Below are positions 3,381 through 10,171 of a DNA stretch of 37,736 bases, piece by piece. The notes beneath the pieces are model-generated. The model searched no databases and was not told the DNA's origin. It saw only the letters and a list, made by a program, of their open reading frames with translations. This stretch comes from a virus. The translations under genes and the position numbers were made by a program. How positions within the stretch are numbered: the first letter of the stretch is position 1; every line of letters starts with the position of its first letter. The DNA is taken from positions 1 to 37,736 of the IMG/VR virus record IMGVR_UViG_3300034104_005880. The stretch is one strand, 5' to 3'.

Positions 3381-5066
3381 ATGGCATTCAAAGATTACCT
3401 TCCCTTTCAAAGAGTCGAAGAAGAAAACAATTTTGTAGCCAGAACTTTAGAGCCAGAAGACTTCAATTCTTTAAGTAGGACTATGAAGGTGGCAACTATA
3501 GCTCTGGGCTTTAGAGGCATTGCCTTATACACAAATTCAAGAACTACATTTGAGCCATCTCCATATGACTTTGAGAGAATAATACAAGCAGTAGATACTG
3601 ACTCTTATGTTAAGCAGTCTATTTCAAAGTATAAAGAATTATTTTGGAAAGAAGGCTGGGATATAGTGTCCGAAAATAAAGAAGCAGTATCATATCTCTA
3701 TCAAAGAATAGACTATTTAGAAATAGCTATGAAGAGACCTTTTATAGATTTTCTTATGGAGGTTATAGATCAGCTAATTAAGTTTGGCAATGCTTTTATT
3801 GTTAAAGCTAGAGCTGATATTAACGAATACTTTCCTATAAACTTAACCCCAGTATCTGGAGAGCAACCCATTGCTGGCTATTATCTTATACCAACCGAAC
3901 AGGTTAGAATATTAAGAGATAAGCACAACAAGCCAAAGGCTTATAAGCAGCAAACAAATCCTTACACATTTGCTCCAAGCACTACTGCTCCAATTTGGCC
4001 AGCAGATAGAGTTATTCATCTTCATTTTGATAGAAAAACAGGAAGAGCATTTGGCACCCCTTTTGTCGCAAATGCTATAGATGACATTGTTGCTTTAAGA
4101 CAAATGGAAGAGGATATCCAAAACCTTGTTCATAGAGAGTTGTTTCCTCTTTATAAATATAAAATTGGAACACCAGATCAACCAGCTGAGCCTGATGAAA
4201 TTGAAAGAGCTGCAGTAGAGATCGAGAACCTTAGAGCAGAAGGTGGTTTAATACTTCCTAACAGACATGATGTTGAGGTTATAGGTGGACAGGGTAATTC
4301 GTTAGACGCTTCAAAGTATCTAGATCACTTTAAGGAAAGAGTAGCAATAGGTTTAGGAGTTGCTCCTCACCATTTAGGTATGACATTAAATGGTGGTAAT
4401 AGATCTGTGACAGAAAGATTAGATACTGCCCTCTATGATAGAGTCAAAAACTATCAAAGACTTTTTGCAGAAATGATCAGATTTAATATATTTAATGAGC
4501 TGTTATTTGAAGGTGGATTTGATCCGATTCAAAATCCTTCAGAAGAAGGTCAATCTGATCGTTGTTACTTTAAGTTTAGAGAAATAGACGTTGATACTCA
4601 GGTTAAAAAAGAAACTCACATTATTCAAAAGTATACGAATAATGTTACTTCTCTTGAAGAGACTCGTTTGGCATTAGGTCTTGAGAGAGATGTTGAAATA
4701 GAAGAACTGTTTGCCGCAATGCAAGGAAAAGTCCAAATAGCTATAAGTGCAGCTCAAGCTGAGTTGGCTTCTTCAAAACAAGAAGATCAAGGTAGTGATC
4801 AAAACACCCAACAGCCTACTAAGCAAAATTCTGATACTCAAGAGCCAGCTAAAAAAGGTCAAGTAAATCTACCTAATAATAGAAGAGGCGTTGGAAACGT
4901 TATTAGACCAGCAAATCAAAATGGTAGAAGAAACTCTCCAAATATAAAAAGAATGGACAATCAATTGTTGAATACGATTGAAAAACTGTTGGATGAAGAG
5001 TATACTATTGTGCAAGATGATATTATCGATGTAAATGAAAAAGAGGATAACTCAAATGTCAAATAG
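3381..5066 (+). CDS. Portal protein
   Basis: 561 residues, within the usual size of phage portals. The dodecameric portal sits at one capsid vertex, nucleates head assembly and is the DNA channel. The recognisable part is residues ~50-370: substitution-poor helical and beta segments (e.g. E-L-F-W-K-E-G-W-D-I-V), and the central block V-A-I-G-L-G-V-A-P-H-H-L-G with N-G-G-N-R-S-V-T-E-R typical of portals. The C-terminal ~110 residues are Gln/Asn/Glu-rich and low complexity, as in other portals. GGAAATAAA precedes the ATG. It is followed by a small acidic protein overlapping its last 11 bases and then by the protease and capsid genes, the standard head-module order. Confidence 0.85.
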   Translation: MAFKDYLPFQRVEEENNFVARTLEPEDFNSLSRTMKVATIALGFRGIALYTNSRTTFEPSPYDFERIIQAVDTDSYVKQSISKYKELFWKEGWDIVSENKEAVSYLYQRIDYLEIAMKRPFIDFLMEVIDQLIKFGNAFIVKARADINEYFPINLTPVSGEQPIAGYYLIPTEQVRILRDKHNKPKAYKQQTNPYTFAPSTTAPIWPADRVIHLHFDRKTGRAFGTPFVANAIDDIVALRQMEEDIQNLVHRELFPLYKYKIGTPDQPAEPDEIERAAVEIENLRAEGGLILPNRHDVEVIGGQGNSLDASKYLDHFKERVAIGLGVAPHHLGMTLNGGNRSVTERLDTALYDRVKNYQRLFAEMIRFNIFNELLFEGGFDPIQNPSEEGQSDRCYFKFREIDVDTQVKKETHIIQKYTNNVTSLEETRLALGLERDVEIEELFAAMQGKVQIAISAAQAELASSKQEDQGSDQNTQQPTKQNSDTQEPAKKGQVNLPNNRRGVGNVIRPANQNGRRNSPNIKRMDNQLLNTIEKLLDEEYTIVQDDIIDVNEKEDNSNVK

Positions 5067-5346
5067 TTATGAAGAATTTTTTAATAGTTTTGAAGATTTT
5101 AAGCTCGCAGTTTATAATGGTCAGGTAAGACTAGCTCTAGAGCATTTAGTTCCAGTTCTTGAAACAATGGTTGATATTCTGTCTGACGACGAACAGCAAG
5201 AAGAAGAAAAGACAGAACAAAATGTAGTCACTCAAACACCAGCTCCTATTGTAAAAGAAGAAGTCGCTTCTGTAGAAGAAGTTAAGGTCGAGGATGTAAA
5301 GAGTGAAAAAGCTCCTGCGAAAAAGAATACAAAAGAACAAGAATAA
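5056..5346 (+). CDS. Small acidic protein downstream of portal
   Basis: Start chosen at ATG 5056 because GAGG lies about nine bases upstream; an ATG at 5035 has no such site. This gives 96 residues. The first ~45 residues look helical (F-E-D-F-K-L-A-V-Y-N-G-Q-V-R-L-A-L-E-H-L-V-P); the rest is Glu/Lys/Val-rich and probably disordered. It overlaps the portal gene's end by 11 bases, so translation is likely coupled. Function unknown; position suggests a head-assembly accessory factor. Confidence 0.6.
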   Translation: MSNSYEEFFNSFEDFKLAVYNGQVRLALEHLVPVLETMVDILSDDEQQEEEKTEQNVVTQTPAPIVKEEVASVEEVKVEDVKSEKAPAKKNTKEQE

Positions 5347-5362
5347 AAAATATATAGATAAA

Positions 5363-6130
5363 ATGGAATTGATAATTGGCTGTCCAATCTATAAAAGAAA
5401 TTGGATATTTCCTTACTGGATCTCTTGCATTGAAAACCAAGGCATTGATATGTCAAAGATTGGTTTTATATTTGAAGCTTCAAGAGAAGACGAAGCTACT
5501 CTAGAAATGTTAAAAAGATATAGAGAAAATAATCAAAAGTCTCCTTTGTTTGAAATAAATTTTAGAGATGATATAACTCATCACGAACACGCAGAGAACT
5601 CTAGAATGTGGACTCTCTCGAAGTATGAGAACATGGCTTCTATGAGAAACTCTTTATTGAAAAGAGTAAGAGAAATTCAGCCAAACTATTATTATAGTTT
5701 AGACTCTGATATCTTATTGACCAATCCTAATACAATCACATTATTAACCAGTCACATTAAACAAGGCGCAGATGCTGTAAGTACTCTCATGTTCATGACT
5801 CCAGTATCAACTATGTATCCAGGTGTAATGAACTGGGTAGATAGTGAAACCGATAAAGCCTTTAGAAAAGAAGAATACCCGTTAGGAACTTATTTTAAGT
5901 CTGACATAATAATGGGAGCTAAGATGATGTCTAAGCAAATCTATAATAATGTTGACTATAAAATCCACGCCCAAGGAGAAGATCTTGGCTGGTCGGCAAA
6001 CGCCAGAGAGTTAGATTATAACTTATACTGTGCATCTTACATATACACTCCTCATATCATGAATAGAACAATGTTGTCCGAATTCTTGAAATCTGGTGAT
6101 GATAGAGGTAAACTATGTACAGCTGTTTAA
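5363..6130 (+). CDS. Putative GT-A type glycosyltransferase
   Basis: 255 residues. Start taken at ATG 5363 (M-E-L-I-I-G-C-P-I-Y), since a beta-strand start is typical of these enzymes and the longer reading runs back through the preceding gene. A D-S-D motif at residues 114-116 (Y-S-L-D-S-D-I-L-L) fits the DxD metal/nucleotide-sugar site of GT-A enzymes, and H-A-Q-G-E-D-L-G-W near the end fits the distal acidic/His motif. It would transfer a sugar to an unknown acceptor, such as a virion protein, host surface glycan or modified DNA base. Its location between portal and prohead protease makes virion glycosylation an attractive but unproven idea. Substrate cannot be read from sequence. Confidence 0.6.
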   Translation: MELIIGCPIYKRNWIFPYWISCIENQGIDMSKIGFIFEASREDEATLEMLKRYRENNQKSPLFEINFRDDITHHEHAENSRMWTLSKYENMASMRNSLLKRVREIQPNYYYSLDSDILLTNPNTITLLTSHIKQGADAVSTLMFMTPVSTMYPGVMNWVDSETDKAFRKEEYPLGTYFKSDIIMGAKMMSKQIYNNVDYKIHAQGEDLGWSANARELDYNLYCASYIYTPHIMNRTMLSEFLKSGDDRGKLCTAV

Positions 6131-6219: not shown

Positions 6220-8284
6220 ATGGCATATGATTTTATAGAAAACTTTACAGTTGAGCTTCCAAATTTATCAGAAGCTGAATATAACTTTTCTGAGGGTTTT
6301 AGTGAAAACTACGGTTTGATTATTGAAGTAGCCGCAATCCACGAACGGACTAACAGCTAACTATAACAACTACTCAGCTGCAGAGCTTGAAAAAGCCTTG
6401 CAATCTTGGGTTGATCCTTATCCAAAGCCAATCATATTAAATCATGACTTAAACTCTGAACCAATTGGTAGAGTAATCGCTGCTAAGATGGATAAAGAAG
6501 AAGATGGCTCCCCTTACGTTCGTTTGCAGATTGCTATCACAGACCCTGTAGCAGCACAAAAGGTATCAGACAAGAGATATCTTACTGGTTCAGTTGGAGG
6601 AAGAGCTTCTAAGGCCGTATGTTCTATTACAGGAGAAGATCTCGCTTCAACAGATTCTGCTGGAAGACCAAAAGCTCCTAAATATAAAAGAGGAACAGTT
6701 CATAAGGGCAAACTAGCTTTTATCGACATGCAAGATATCTCCTTTAAAGAATATTCATTTGTAAATCAGCCAGCAGACCAAAGATCAAGTGTTAGATCAA
6801 AGAAACAATCAGACGGAAAAGTCACAGTTACTGATTCCGAAGGTTGGGTAGCTAAGAGTAAGGCTTTTGTTCTTCATATGAATGAAGAAGATATTTATTC
6901 TATAGAAGAGCATGAGTCAATTTTGACTAACATGAAGAAAAAAGAGTCCAGACCATTATACCTTCATATGAAAGGCGCTTTTTTATCAGCTATAGCTATC
7001 CAAGAAAGCGAAAACAGCAACAATATAAACAATTCATTACTATCTAATGAGAATGACGTTAACAGTAACCATGAGGAGAATTCTGGTATGGAAAAAAATG
7101 TTGAACAAGAAGACATTTTGGCTGCTATTGAAAATCTAAGTCAAGATTTGAGCGATATAGCCAATGCTTCTAGTGAGGTTTCTGAAGAAGAAGAAACCCC
7201 AGAAGAGCCTGAGGCAGAAGAAAAGCCAGAGGCATCTGAAGAACCTGAGGTTTCAGAAGAATCAGAAAAAGTTGAAGAGTCAGCTCATACAGCAGCTGCC
7301 TCAGTCCAAAAAGTTCTTAACGAAATGATTGTTCTTGGCTTTGTAGCGCAAAGAGCACATTGGAATGTTACTGGAACTGATTTTGAAGAATATCACGCAC
7401 TCTTTGGTGCTATCTATGAAGATATCTTTGATTCAGTTGATTCGGTTGCAGAAGAAATTCGTAAAATGAACGTTATGGTAGAGAATTTAACCAATATGGT
7501 CATGAGCTCATCATTTAAGGACGATGCAACAGCATCTGATCCAAGAACTCTTACTCAAGACCTTTTGAGTAAGAATATGATGCTAAATGAGTCAATTTTA
7601 GCAGCGTTTAATTTATGCTCAGAATCAAATGAGCAAGGAACCGCTGATCTTTTGGCTTCACGTGACGGAATGCACAAGAAGTGGTCATGGCAATTAAGAT
7701 CTTCTCTCGGTGAAGAAGCTGGAGAACCAGCTGATGAATCATGGAGAGAAATAAGCTCTAAGAAAGTTGAAGAGTCTTCTGAAGAACTAGTAGAAAATAC
7801 AGTTGATTCAGAAAGCACTGAGAGTGAATTAGAAAGTGGAGAGAATGGAAATTCCGAGGCAAACCTCACTGGCGATAGTTTAGCCTCTGAGCAAGATGCC
7901 AAGGAAGCTAGTAAAATCCAAACTCTCCAAGAAGAAAACGCAAAGCTCAAAGAGGCATTACACCGTACTTTAGCTGAGAGAGTTGTTGACACTAAGATTT
8001 CTTTAGGAGTTGAATCTTCAGATAGTAGAGATGATCTTATTAAGGATCACGTTGGAAGATCTGCAAGTTCTTTGGCTGATAGCCTTAGAGATCTTGCTAA
8101 GATGCCAGCGGCAAAGAAGAGTATTCACTCTTTAAGCGAGTCTATTATTGAAAATGATGTTGTTTCTGAATCAGAAGACAATGTTATTGATGAAATGAAT
8201 GAAGAAGTTGAAAAGCCAATCGAGAAAAAGCCCTCAGTTGAAGAACTTTTCGTTGATGCCCTAATGGGTCGTCGTAAGCTTTAA
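6220..8284 (+). CDS. Prohead protease-scaffold polyprotein with embedded Dps-like ferroxidase domain; contains +1 CGG shift
   Basis: ATG 6220 (after TTGGAG) reads to CGG at 6346 and stops three codons later; dropping one base gives one 687-residue protein. Residues ~30-165 resemble prohead maturation proteases: H-E-G-L-T-A-N-Y, candidate catalytic His75 (L-N-H-D) and Ser124 (Y-L-T-G-S-V-G-G), then Y-S-F-V-N-Q-P-A-D. After an acidic linker, residues ~353-495 match the Dps/ferritin-like family: A-H-W-N-V-T-G...Y-H-A-L-F...V-D-S-V-A-E-E-I. His380, His392, Asp407 and Glu411 have exactly the spacing (12, 27 and 31 residues after the first His) of the Dps ferroxidase ligands. The C-terminal ~190 residues are acidic and helical with a coiled coil, scaffold-like. 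The protein presumably lines and matures the prohead. The ferritin-like insert is unusual. Confidence 0.85.
6346..6349 (+). other. +1 recoding site 2 (CGGA)
   Basis: Codon 43 of the protease gene. Zero frame: GAA CGG ACT AAC AGC TAA. With one base skipped: GAA-GGA-CTA-ACA, giving I-H-E-G-L-T-A-N-Y, where E-G is typical of the first strand of prohead proteases. Without the shift no protease or scaffold is made from this start. Confidence 0.85.
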
Positions 8285-9112: not shown

Positions 9113-10171
9113 ATGAGTAAGACAATCCAAGAACTCCTCTCAGGTCTCCCAGCTTGGGAAGCCGCATTAGCTGAGGATGGGTACATCGATTCAGATAACA
9201 GAGTAACTATTAAGGAAGCATTTTCGTCACCAGACGCAGCTGCACTTTTCCCTAAGGTCATCTCTCGCACTCTAAGAGAGGCAGCTGAACCACAGTTGCT
9301 CGTAACCCCTCTACTTTCAGTAGTTCGCCTTGGAAAAGGCCGTTCACTGGAATTCCCAGCAGTTAATGCTATTCAAGCAGCTGAGATCCCTGAAGGACAA
9401 GAATATCCAGAGCAAGCACTCGCTTTTGCAAAGCAGATTGAAGGCAAAGTCTCGAAGAAGGGCGTAAAGCTCTCCTTCACCGAAGAAGTCATCGCTGACT
9501 CACTTTGGGACATTGTTGGTCTTCATGTCCGCGCTGCAGGTCGTGCTATGGCTCGCCTTAAGGAACAAATTGCACTAAGTCGTTTTAAGGATGCAGCTAC
9601 TGTTGTATTCGATAATGACAGCGGTTCATACGACGACACAACTGGTCGTGACATTACAGGTGCCTTCAATGACACCGTCACCTGGGACGACGTTGTAGAC
9701 ATGGCAGCAGTCTTAATGGCTGAAAAGCACGTTCCAACAGACTTTATCCTACACCCACTTATGTGGTCAGTGTTCTTGAAGAACAGCATCTTCCATTACA
9801 ATGGCGCTGCCTCTGCAGTTAACACTAGCTGGGGATATCGTCCACAGAACGCTGATGGTGCACTCAACGCAACAGCTCCAATGGGTCTTAACGTAATTGT
9901 TTCCCCATTCGTTAGCTTCACTGCAAAGAGCGGAAACACAGCAGCTAAGTCTGACCTTTTCCTAATCGACCGTAATGAAGTCGGTACCCTTCTCGTCAAG
10001 GATGACATGAGCACAGATCAGTTCGATGATATGAGCCGTGACATTCGTCAAATGAAGATGAAGGAACGCTATGACATCGTAATGCTTGGTGACGGTGAAG
10101 GTATCACAGTTGCTAAGAATGTCAGCCTCGCTCGTAACTACGAGGTTCTCGTTACCAACGAGACAGCTTGA
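9113..10171 (+). CDS. Major capsid protein (HK97-fold)
   Basis: 352 residues, in the usual range. Features of the HK97-fold capsid family: a helical N-terminal stretch (~1-60), an E-loop/P-domain region (L-E-F-P-A-V-N, E-I-P-E-G-Q-E-Y-P), the long spine helix (L-H-V-R-A-A-G-R-A-M-A-R-L-K-E-Q-I-A), and a late A-domain segment (F-L-I-D-R-N-E-V-G-T, R-Y-D-I-V-M-L-G-D-G). It follows the protease/scaffold and decoration genes and is closed by two stem-loops, as expected for the most highly expressed phage gene. Ribosome site AGGAGG. Arg is mostly CGT/CGC and codon choice is more C-rich than in neighbours; no CGG is used. The N-terminal ~50 residues may be removed by the protease. Confidence 0.88.
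   Translation: MSKTIQELLSGLPAWEAALAEDGYIDSDNRVTIKEAFSSPDAAALFPKVISRTLREAAEPQLLVTPLLSVVRLGKGRSLEFPAVNAIQAAEIPEGQEYPEQALAFAKQIEGKVSKKGVKLSFTEEVIADSLWDIVGLHVRAAGRAMARLKEQIALSRFKDAATVVFDNDSGSYDDTTGRDITGAFNDTVTWDDVVDMAAVLMAEKHVPTDFILHPLMWSVFLKNSIFHYNGAASAVNTSWGYRPQNADGALNATAPMGLNVIVSPFVSFTAKSGNTAAKSDLFLIDRNEVGTLLVKDDMSTDQFDDMSRDIRQMKMKERYDIVMLGDGEGITVAKNVSLARNYEVLVTNETA

Follow-up and report, generated by a model that had tools for sequence, protein, structure and literature searches.

A Dps-type ferritin domain within the prohead protease-scaffold gene of an uncultured phage and its recurrence in other phage head modules

Phage scaffolds are usually regarded as structural proteins that are removed at maturation. 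In the IMG/VR virus record IMGVR_UViG_3300034104_005880, analyzed over its whole stretch of 37,736 nucleotides (referred to as the window), the scaffold has a ligand-conserved, ferritin-like enzyme domain built in: positions 7277-7705 encode a Dps domain, with a prohead-protease region before it and a coiled-coil scaffold tail after it in the same reading frame. The domain and its fold, its conserved ligands, the fusion, an internal start signal, purifying selection, modular exchange and recurrence in other phages were established by computation. We read the domain, with a probability of about 0.5, as an optional and interchangeable cargo module on the internal head scaffold, by which an active or near-active ferroxidase would be carried into the procapsid. 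The features of the gene are given below, followed by two neighboring head genes as context.

6220..6345, + strand: prohead protease gene, first frame, 42 amino acids, last residues HE before CGG (translation; the in-frame relatives L013-L017, L024 and L119 share this N-terminus without needing a shift)
6346..6348, + strand: CGG codon of the +1 frameshift, where the two protease frames are joined (CGG conserved at the shift in frameshifted relatives)
6347..7087, + strand: remaining protease region with NHD, GSVGG and SFVNQPAD motifs (PHROG 18299 head maturation protease; colinear weak S78 profile match)
7074..7078, + strand: AGGAG Shine-Dalgarno sequence of the internal scaffold start
7088..8284, + strand: predicted separately translated scaffold form with Dps, 398 amino acids, 44 kDa, isoelectric point (pI) 4.3 (conserved Shine-Dalgarno sequence and ATG; composition)
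7169..7273, + strand: acidic disordered linker 5' of Dps, net charge -15 (predicted local distance difference test score, pLDDT, mostly below 50 in the full-length model; dN/dS, the ratio of non-synonymous to synonymous substitution rates, 0.45)
7277..7705, + strand: Dps (ferritin-like) domain (profile, PDB homology, predicted fold)
7358..7360, + strand: His380, equivalent to H51 of Escherichia coli Dps (alignment)
7394..7396, + strand: His392, equivalent to H63 (alignment)
7406..7408, + strand: Gly396 at the D67 position, fifth ligand missing (alignment)
7439..7441, + strand: Asp407, equivalent to D78 (alignment)
7451..7453, + strand: Glu411, equivalent to E82 (alignment)
7709..7906, + strand: acidic disordered linker 3' of Dps, net charge -18 (full-length model, charge, dN/dS)
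7907..8281, + strand: C-terminal coiled-coil scaffold region (helix 523-557 and what follows it at a pLDDT of about 85; conserved in Dps-bearing and Dps-less relatives alike)
3381..5066, + strand: portal protein gene (PHROG 9232 portal, E=2.5e-55)
9113..10171, + strand: major capsid protein, HK97 fold (PF25209, E=4.8e-17; PHROG 3922, E=1.3e-28)

The open reading frame (ORF) at 6332-8284 on the + strand is the second frame of the prohead protease-scaffold gene, whose first frame runs from the ATG at 6220 to just past the CGG at 6346. A +1 shift over the CGG at 6346 links IHE to GLTANYNNY and gives a product of 687 amino acids. With a full-length relative as query the protease region matched the PHROG 18299 head maturation protease at E=4e-4, an hhalign match to an S78 protease was colinear and weak (probability 9.7%), and profile comparison with other S78 proteases was likewise weak; a Pfam search of the protease region returned no match. 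In the full-length model the protease part was poorly folded (pLDDT about 30-45), and no conclusion was drawn from it. The Dps domain stood out in the same model as a high-confidence island between the disordered acidic linkers and the C-terminal coiled coil. Scans of the window for tRNA genes and Rfam families found nothing.

The identity of the domain was supported by sequence profiles, homology to PDB chains and the predicted fold, which bore out the original prediction, made from the sequence alone, that a Dps domain is embedded in this protein. Window positions 7277-7720 matched the Pfam family PF00210 (Ferritin) at E=1.5e-9 and 38.4 bits against a cut-off of 24.5, and the domain matched PHROG 3636 (phage Dps) at E=1.1e-22. 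The closest PDB chain was Dps of Pseudomonas aeruginosa (8ff9, E=4e-13), and the PDB matches at E<=0.1 comprised 55 distinct sequences, essentially all Dps or Dps-like. Structure prediction and comparison with Dps, which had been proposed together with that claim, gave a four-helix ferritin-like Dps fold: an AlphaFold2 monomer built from an alignment of 18 viral homologues reached a pLDDT of 84 with helices A-B-BC-C-D, and AlphaFold2, Foldseek and VIA agreed on a four-helix bundle with a short BC helix and no fifth C-terminal helix. The Foldseek matches listed were Dps chains, 3iq1 among them at a template modeling (TM) score of 0.84 by target, and the VIA match to Dps had a Z of about 19 over 148 residues.

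The ligands of the ferroxidase centre were aligned with those of E. coli Dps taken from the MG1655 genome, and their conservation was counted in 61 non-redundant viral Dps domains and 45 cellular relatives. The 687-residue product, read from 6220-6345 and then from 6347 onward, places H380, H392, D407 and E411 exactly where they had been predicted, and their spacing of 12/15/4 is that of residues 51/63/78/82 in E. coli. The residues H51, W52, H63, D78 and E82 are invariant in 18/18 members of the window family and in 61/61 viral domains, and also in the 45 cellular relatives. Position 67 is Asp in E. coli, Glu in 39 of the 45 cellular relatives and Gly396 in the window; it is Glu in only nine of the 61 viral domains, and G, S or A in all 18 window-family members. 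Position 83 is Arg in 43/45 cellular relatives, Glu in the window and Asn in most viral domains. The original prediction had called the ferroxidase centre complete. A complete five-ligand centre of the E. coli type was rejected, with four of the five ligands present, Gly396 at the place of D67, and this fifth ligand mostly lost in the viral clade. As judged from the alignment, the main iron site appears to be kept, and changes appear to have affected the second site and some of the surface of the subunit. The domain shares with the bacterial Dps proteins (E. coli; P. aeruginosa PA0962, 8ff9; Vibrio cholerae 3iq1) the fold with its BC helix, significant homology and H51/W52/H63/D78/E82 at exact spacing; it differs from them in being embedded in a phage scaffold, whereas the bacterial protein is a free gene product, in the change of D67 to Gly and the replacement of R83, in the acidic linkers at both ends and in belonging to a separate clade.

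Dps proteins of some bacteria bind DNA, and the location of the domain would be inside the head. An internal DNA-binding or DNA-compacting head protein, which the original prediction had also suggested, was considered, but none of the results obtained here favored it. The domain itself has a pI of 4.6 and a net charge of -11; the Lys/Arg-rich N- or C-terminal tail of DNA-binding Dps was not found in it, and no Lys-rich tail accompanies the linkers, acidic in their turn, that flank it on both sides. The low pI and the acidic linkers argue against DNA compaction, which we regard as very improbable.

The scaffold form appears to have a translation start of its own. The AGGAG at 7074-7078 is followed, after a gap of 9 nt, by the ATG at 7088. 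The same AGGAG, at the identical 9-nt distance from the same Met, recurs in 78 of the 80 relatives that a search with the whole protein retrieved from IMG/VR, whether Dps-bearing or Dps-less; one of the other loci is truncated by the end of its contig, and the search pattern failed to catch the other. The peptide encoded at this start is variable (EENSN, QENSN, KEIRS, EENLE). Translation from this start should therefore yield the 398-residue scaffold form, Dps included, with no need of the +1 frameshift. The original prediction had made production of the domain depend on its second recoding site; because the conserved internal Shine-Dalgarno sequence and ATG start the scaffold form downstream of the shift, Dps production need not depend on it, and the frameshift as a requirement for Dps was rejected. 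In phage lambda (gpC/Nu3), the scaffold is read from a start in frame inside the protease gene. The nested in-frame scaffold start is common to both systems, here as predicted from the conserved Shine-Dalgarno sequence and ATG, but in most relatives of the window the protease is read through a +1 frameshift, and the scaffold here has an enzyme-like ferritin domain as an insert.

The presence of Dps at this position is variable. The domain was found at the same place in 23 of the 80 relatives; 10/80 have only its C-terminal half (profile E about 1e-17, ferroxidase helices absent), and 47/80 have neither. The loci with the ferroxidase half deleted are L031-L034, L037, L038, L057 and L059-L061, and in several other relatives the Dps position is taken by another short helical segment. 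Relocation of Dps to another place in the Dps-less relatives was rejected, as no PF00210 was found elsewhere in the 17 such records that could be searched, although these records may be fragments. Dps is swapped as a module independently of its flanks: between L006 and L020 the Dps DNA is 96.5% identical and the flanks 59-71%, between L015 and L016 Dps is 78.6% identical and the flanks 96-99.9%, and between L002 and L005 Dps is 56% identical and the flanks about 79-85%. Where present, Dps is under strong purifying selection, with a median dN/dS of 0.117; the protease has 0.104, the scaffold tail 0.24 and the linkers 0.45-0.60, all of these values being approximate, with few pairs below saturation. 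The contigs are metagenomic and the Dps frame of L030 is broken, as might be expected of a chance fusion or an assembly chimera without function. This explanation is refuted by recurrence and selection, given the 18 distinct in-frame Dps fusions in the window family, the low dN/dS, the invariant ligands and the recurrence elsewhere (see below), and its probability is practically negligible.

Another explanation is a structural role only, in which Dps, oligomerizing as a dimer or 12-mer, would define the core of the scaffold and leave the head together with it, the metal merely stabilizing the dimer. Such a role would suit a four-helix bundle with its ligands at the presumed dimer interface, the loss of the fifth ligand, the persistence of the C-terminal half-domain in 10 relatives and the position of Dps within the scaffold form in several architectures. 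However, 47 of the 80 relatives are without Dps or a clear remnant and 10 more have only half of it, so that head assembly does not need Dps, and the strict invariance of the four primary ligands in 61 domains goes beyond structural need. That the domain is optional speaks for a benefit under certain conditions, such as iron or oxidative stress, and against a structural core that the head could not do without; we consider a purely structural role rather unlikely.

Searches of viral contigs with Dps alignments recovered 173 related stretches and then at least 527, and the same fusion, which the original prediction had proposed to seek in other phages, was found in many such phages. In the phylogenetic tree the viral Dps form one clade (97/97) on a long branch from cellular Dps, and the window family is one subclade (99/93) of it. 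The viral clade occurs in at least seven head-gene architectures besides that of the window, mostly fused to protease, scaffold or portal or placed right after the portal gene. The architectures are as follows.

Protease-Dps-scaffold: the window family
S78 protease-DUF6321-Dps-scaffold: L132, L137, L144, L163
Other S78-like-Dps proteins: L157, L228, L235
Dps before the protease: L195, L225, L233, L239
Dps-scaffold as an ORF of its own, lying between a protease-like ORF and the capsid gene: L122, L177
ORF of 1766 amino acids with portal/protease profile matches and then Dps: L211
Fusion with a PHROG 2859 domain: L190
Free Dps immediately following the portal gene: L198, L229

In most members of the DUF6321 architecture an internal AAGGAG-ATG lies 32-38 codons before H51 and puts Dps at the N-terminus of the scaffold form; a few loci whose local sequence differs lack the AAGGAG start. 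In another lineage the Dps-scaffold is a separate ORF with GGAGG. DUF6321 and PHROG 2859 domains stand beside Dps in the head polyproteins of L132, L137, L144 and L163, and also of L122, L190, L211 and L239, so that these proteins look like arrays of exchangeable modules. For a close cellular source of Dps, a first scan of genome contigs gave nothing, and a second scan gave three contigs of metagenome-assembled genomes (MAGs) at 45-54% identity, followed by cellular Dps at 27-36%. Two of the three contigs carry long fusion ORFs and are probably phage DNA binned with bacteria. L239, from an Actinomycetota MAG, has a 572-residue Dps fusion ORF with a head protease, and L240, from a Betaproteobacteria MAG, one of 527 residues; these contigs could perhaps be prophages or binned phage contigs, and could point to hosts. 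Taken across these architectures, the linkage of Dps to head modules seems less a curiosity than a general solution.

Standalone Dps genes of phages were compared as well (S-SRM01, Privateer, Evy and the gut 'Gratiaviridae', PMC8008677). They belong to the same superfamily and gave tblastn matches to the window domain, but in 4/4 GenBank records inspected they are free genes away from head genes, and the two that were placed on the tree fall outside the head-module clade on long branches. Such genes, and the proposal that the gut-phage Dps acts in the host (PMC8008677), would agree with a cytosolic protection, in which the pool of Dps-scaffold serves as auxiliary Dps in the infected cell, limits the stress from iron and peroxide ahead of assembly and is lost when the head matures. 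This explanation does not account for the fact that, in diverse phages, Dps is time and again fused or linked to protease, scaffold and portal, and we hold it to be unlikely, more so than a purely structural role. The recurrent linkage in unrelated phages points instead to action at the head.

As a scaffold-borne cargo, Dps might work in the following way. The gene would be read in two ways, the +1 frameshift giving the full-length protease-Dps-scaffold and the internal start at 7088 giving the scaffold with Dps in the middle. The scaffold tail would bring Dps into the procapsid, where its local concentration would let the subunits pair and probably form cages. In paired subunits H51 and H63 of one would lie beside D78 and E82 of the other, and the site could bind Fe(II) and oxidize it with peroxide or oxygen, which would keep Fenton chemistry off the DNA during packaging or in the particle. 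Maturation would probably involve cleavage of the disordered acidic linkers by the protease. Dps cages are about 9 nm in size, and an assembled 12-mer would, once the linkers are cut, be too large to leave the head. Several points weigh against this reading. With D67 changed to Gly and R83 replaced, site B or the cage may differ; 57 of the 80 close relatives are without the full Dps domain, so that any benefit would be conditional; and L199, L224 and L227 are standalone genes with only a terminase recognizable nearby.

The proteome of a Vi01-like phage is reported to contain ferritin (PMC10892097), and encapsulins load ferritin-like cargo into HK97-fold shells (PMC8346489, PMC11202242); in view of both, the principle of a ferritin in the head is plausible. 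The principle shared with ferritin-loaded encapsulins would be a ferritin-like protein in an HK97-fold shell, an HK97-fold capsid gene being present here and encapsulation presumed; what differs is that the carrier would be a scaffold fusion and that the particle belongs to a real phage, which packages DNA as well. The recurrence of the domain across unrelated phages suggests that some phages build their heads around a ferritin-like cage and may carry it in them. If the cage is retained in the particle, it would naturally connect phage heads with ferritin-loaded encapsulins, and would make directly testable whether particles of phages carry iron (the Ferrojan horse hypothesis, cited in PMC10892097); the particle would then be a natural DNA-packaging counterpart of those encapsulins. 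A wider proposal, to which we give only tentative credence, is that many environmental tailed phages build heads around scaffold-delivered ferritin-like cages that stay in the virion, carry iron, protect the genome from oxidation and bring an iron load to the next host. The fusion could also provide a ready-made example of enzyme loading into a phage head.

Literature searches found no description of a fusion of Dps with a prohead protease or scaffold. Several long proteins from uncultured Caudovirales phages in UniProt, for example A0A6J7WIS1 ('Prohead protease', 432 amino acids) and A0A6J5N5R9 ('Ferritin/DPS domain containing', 679 amino acids), have the same Dps fold by structure search and are named after one half or the other. 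The fusion is already deposited in UniProt but, as far as these searches show, undescribed; each part is of a known kind, and the recurrent combination is new.

The recoding signal itself showed further regularities. CGG was found 0 times among the 10,821 sense codons of the window ORFs, and occurs at 6346, 10529, 14800 and 25050, each time a few codons before a stop. At all four sites the +1 frame opens with Gly (C|GGN) and is open over the 80 codons read, starting with GLTANYNN, GQQEFFIR, GTVTNINL and GSFDSESY. This looks like a CGG-dependent programmed +1 frameshift with several uses per genome. In L007, L008, L010, L011 and L012 the CGG +1 site has moved by a few codons (ACA CGG A, not GAA CGG A), and the relatives listed above with the protease in frame have no CGG. 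Between the portal and protease genes, at 5303-6130 of the window, lies an Anp1-like glycosyltransferase-type ORF (E=1.8e-6, just below the family cut-off).
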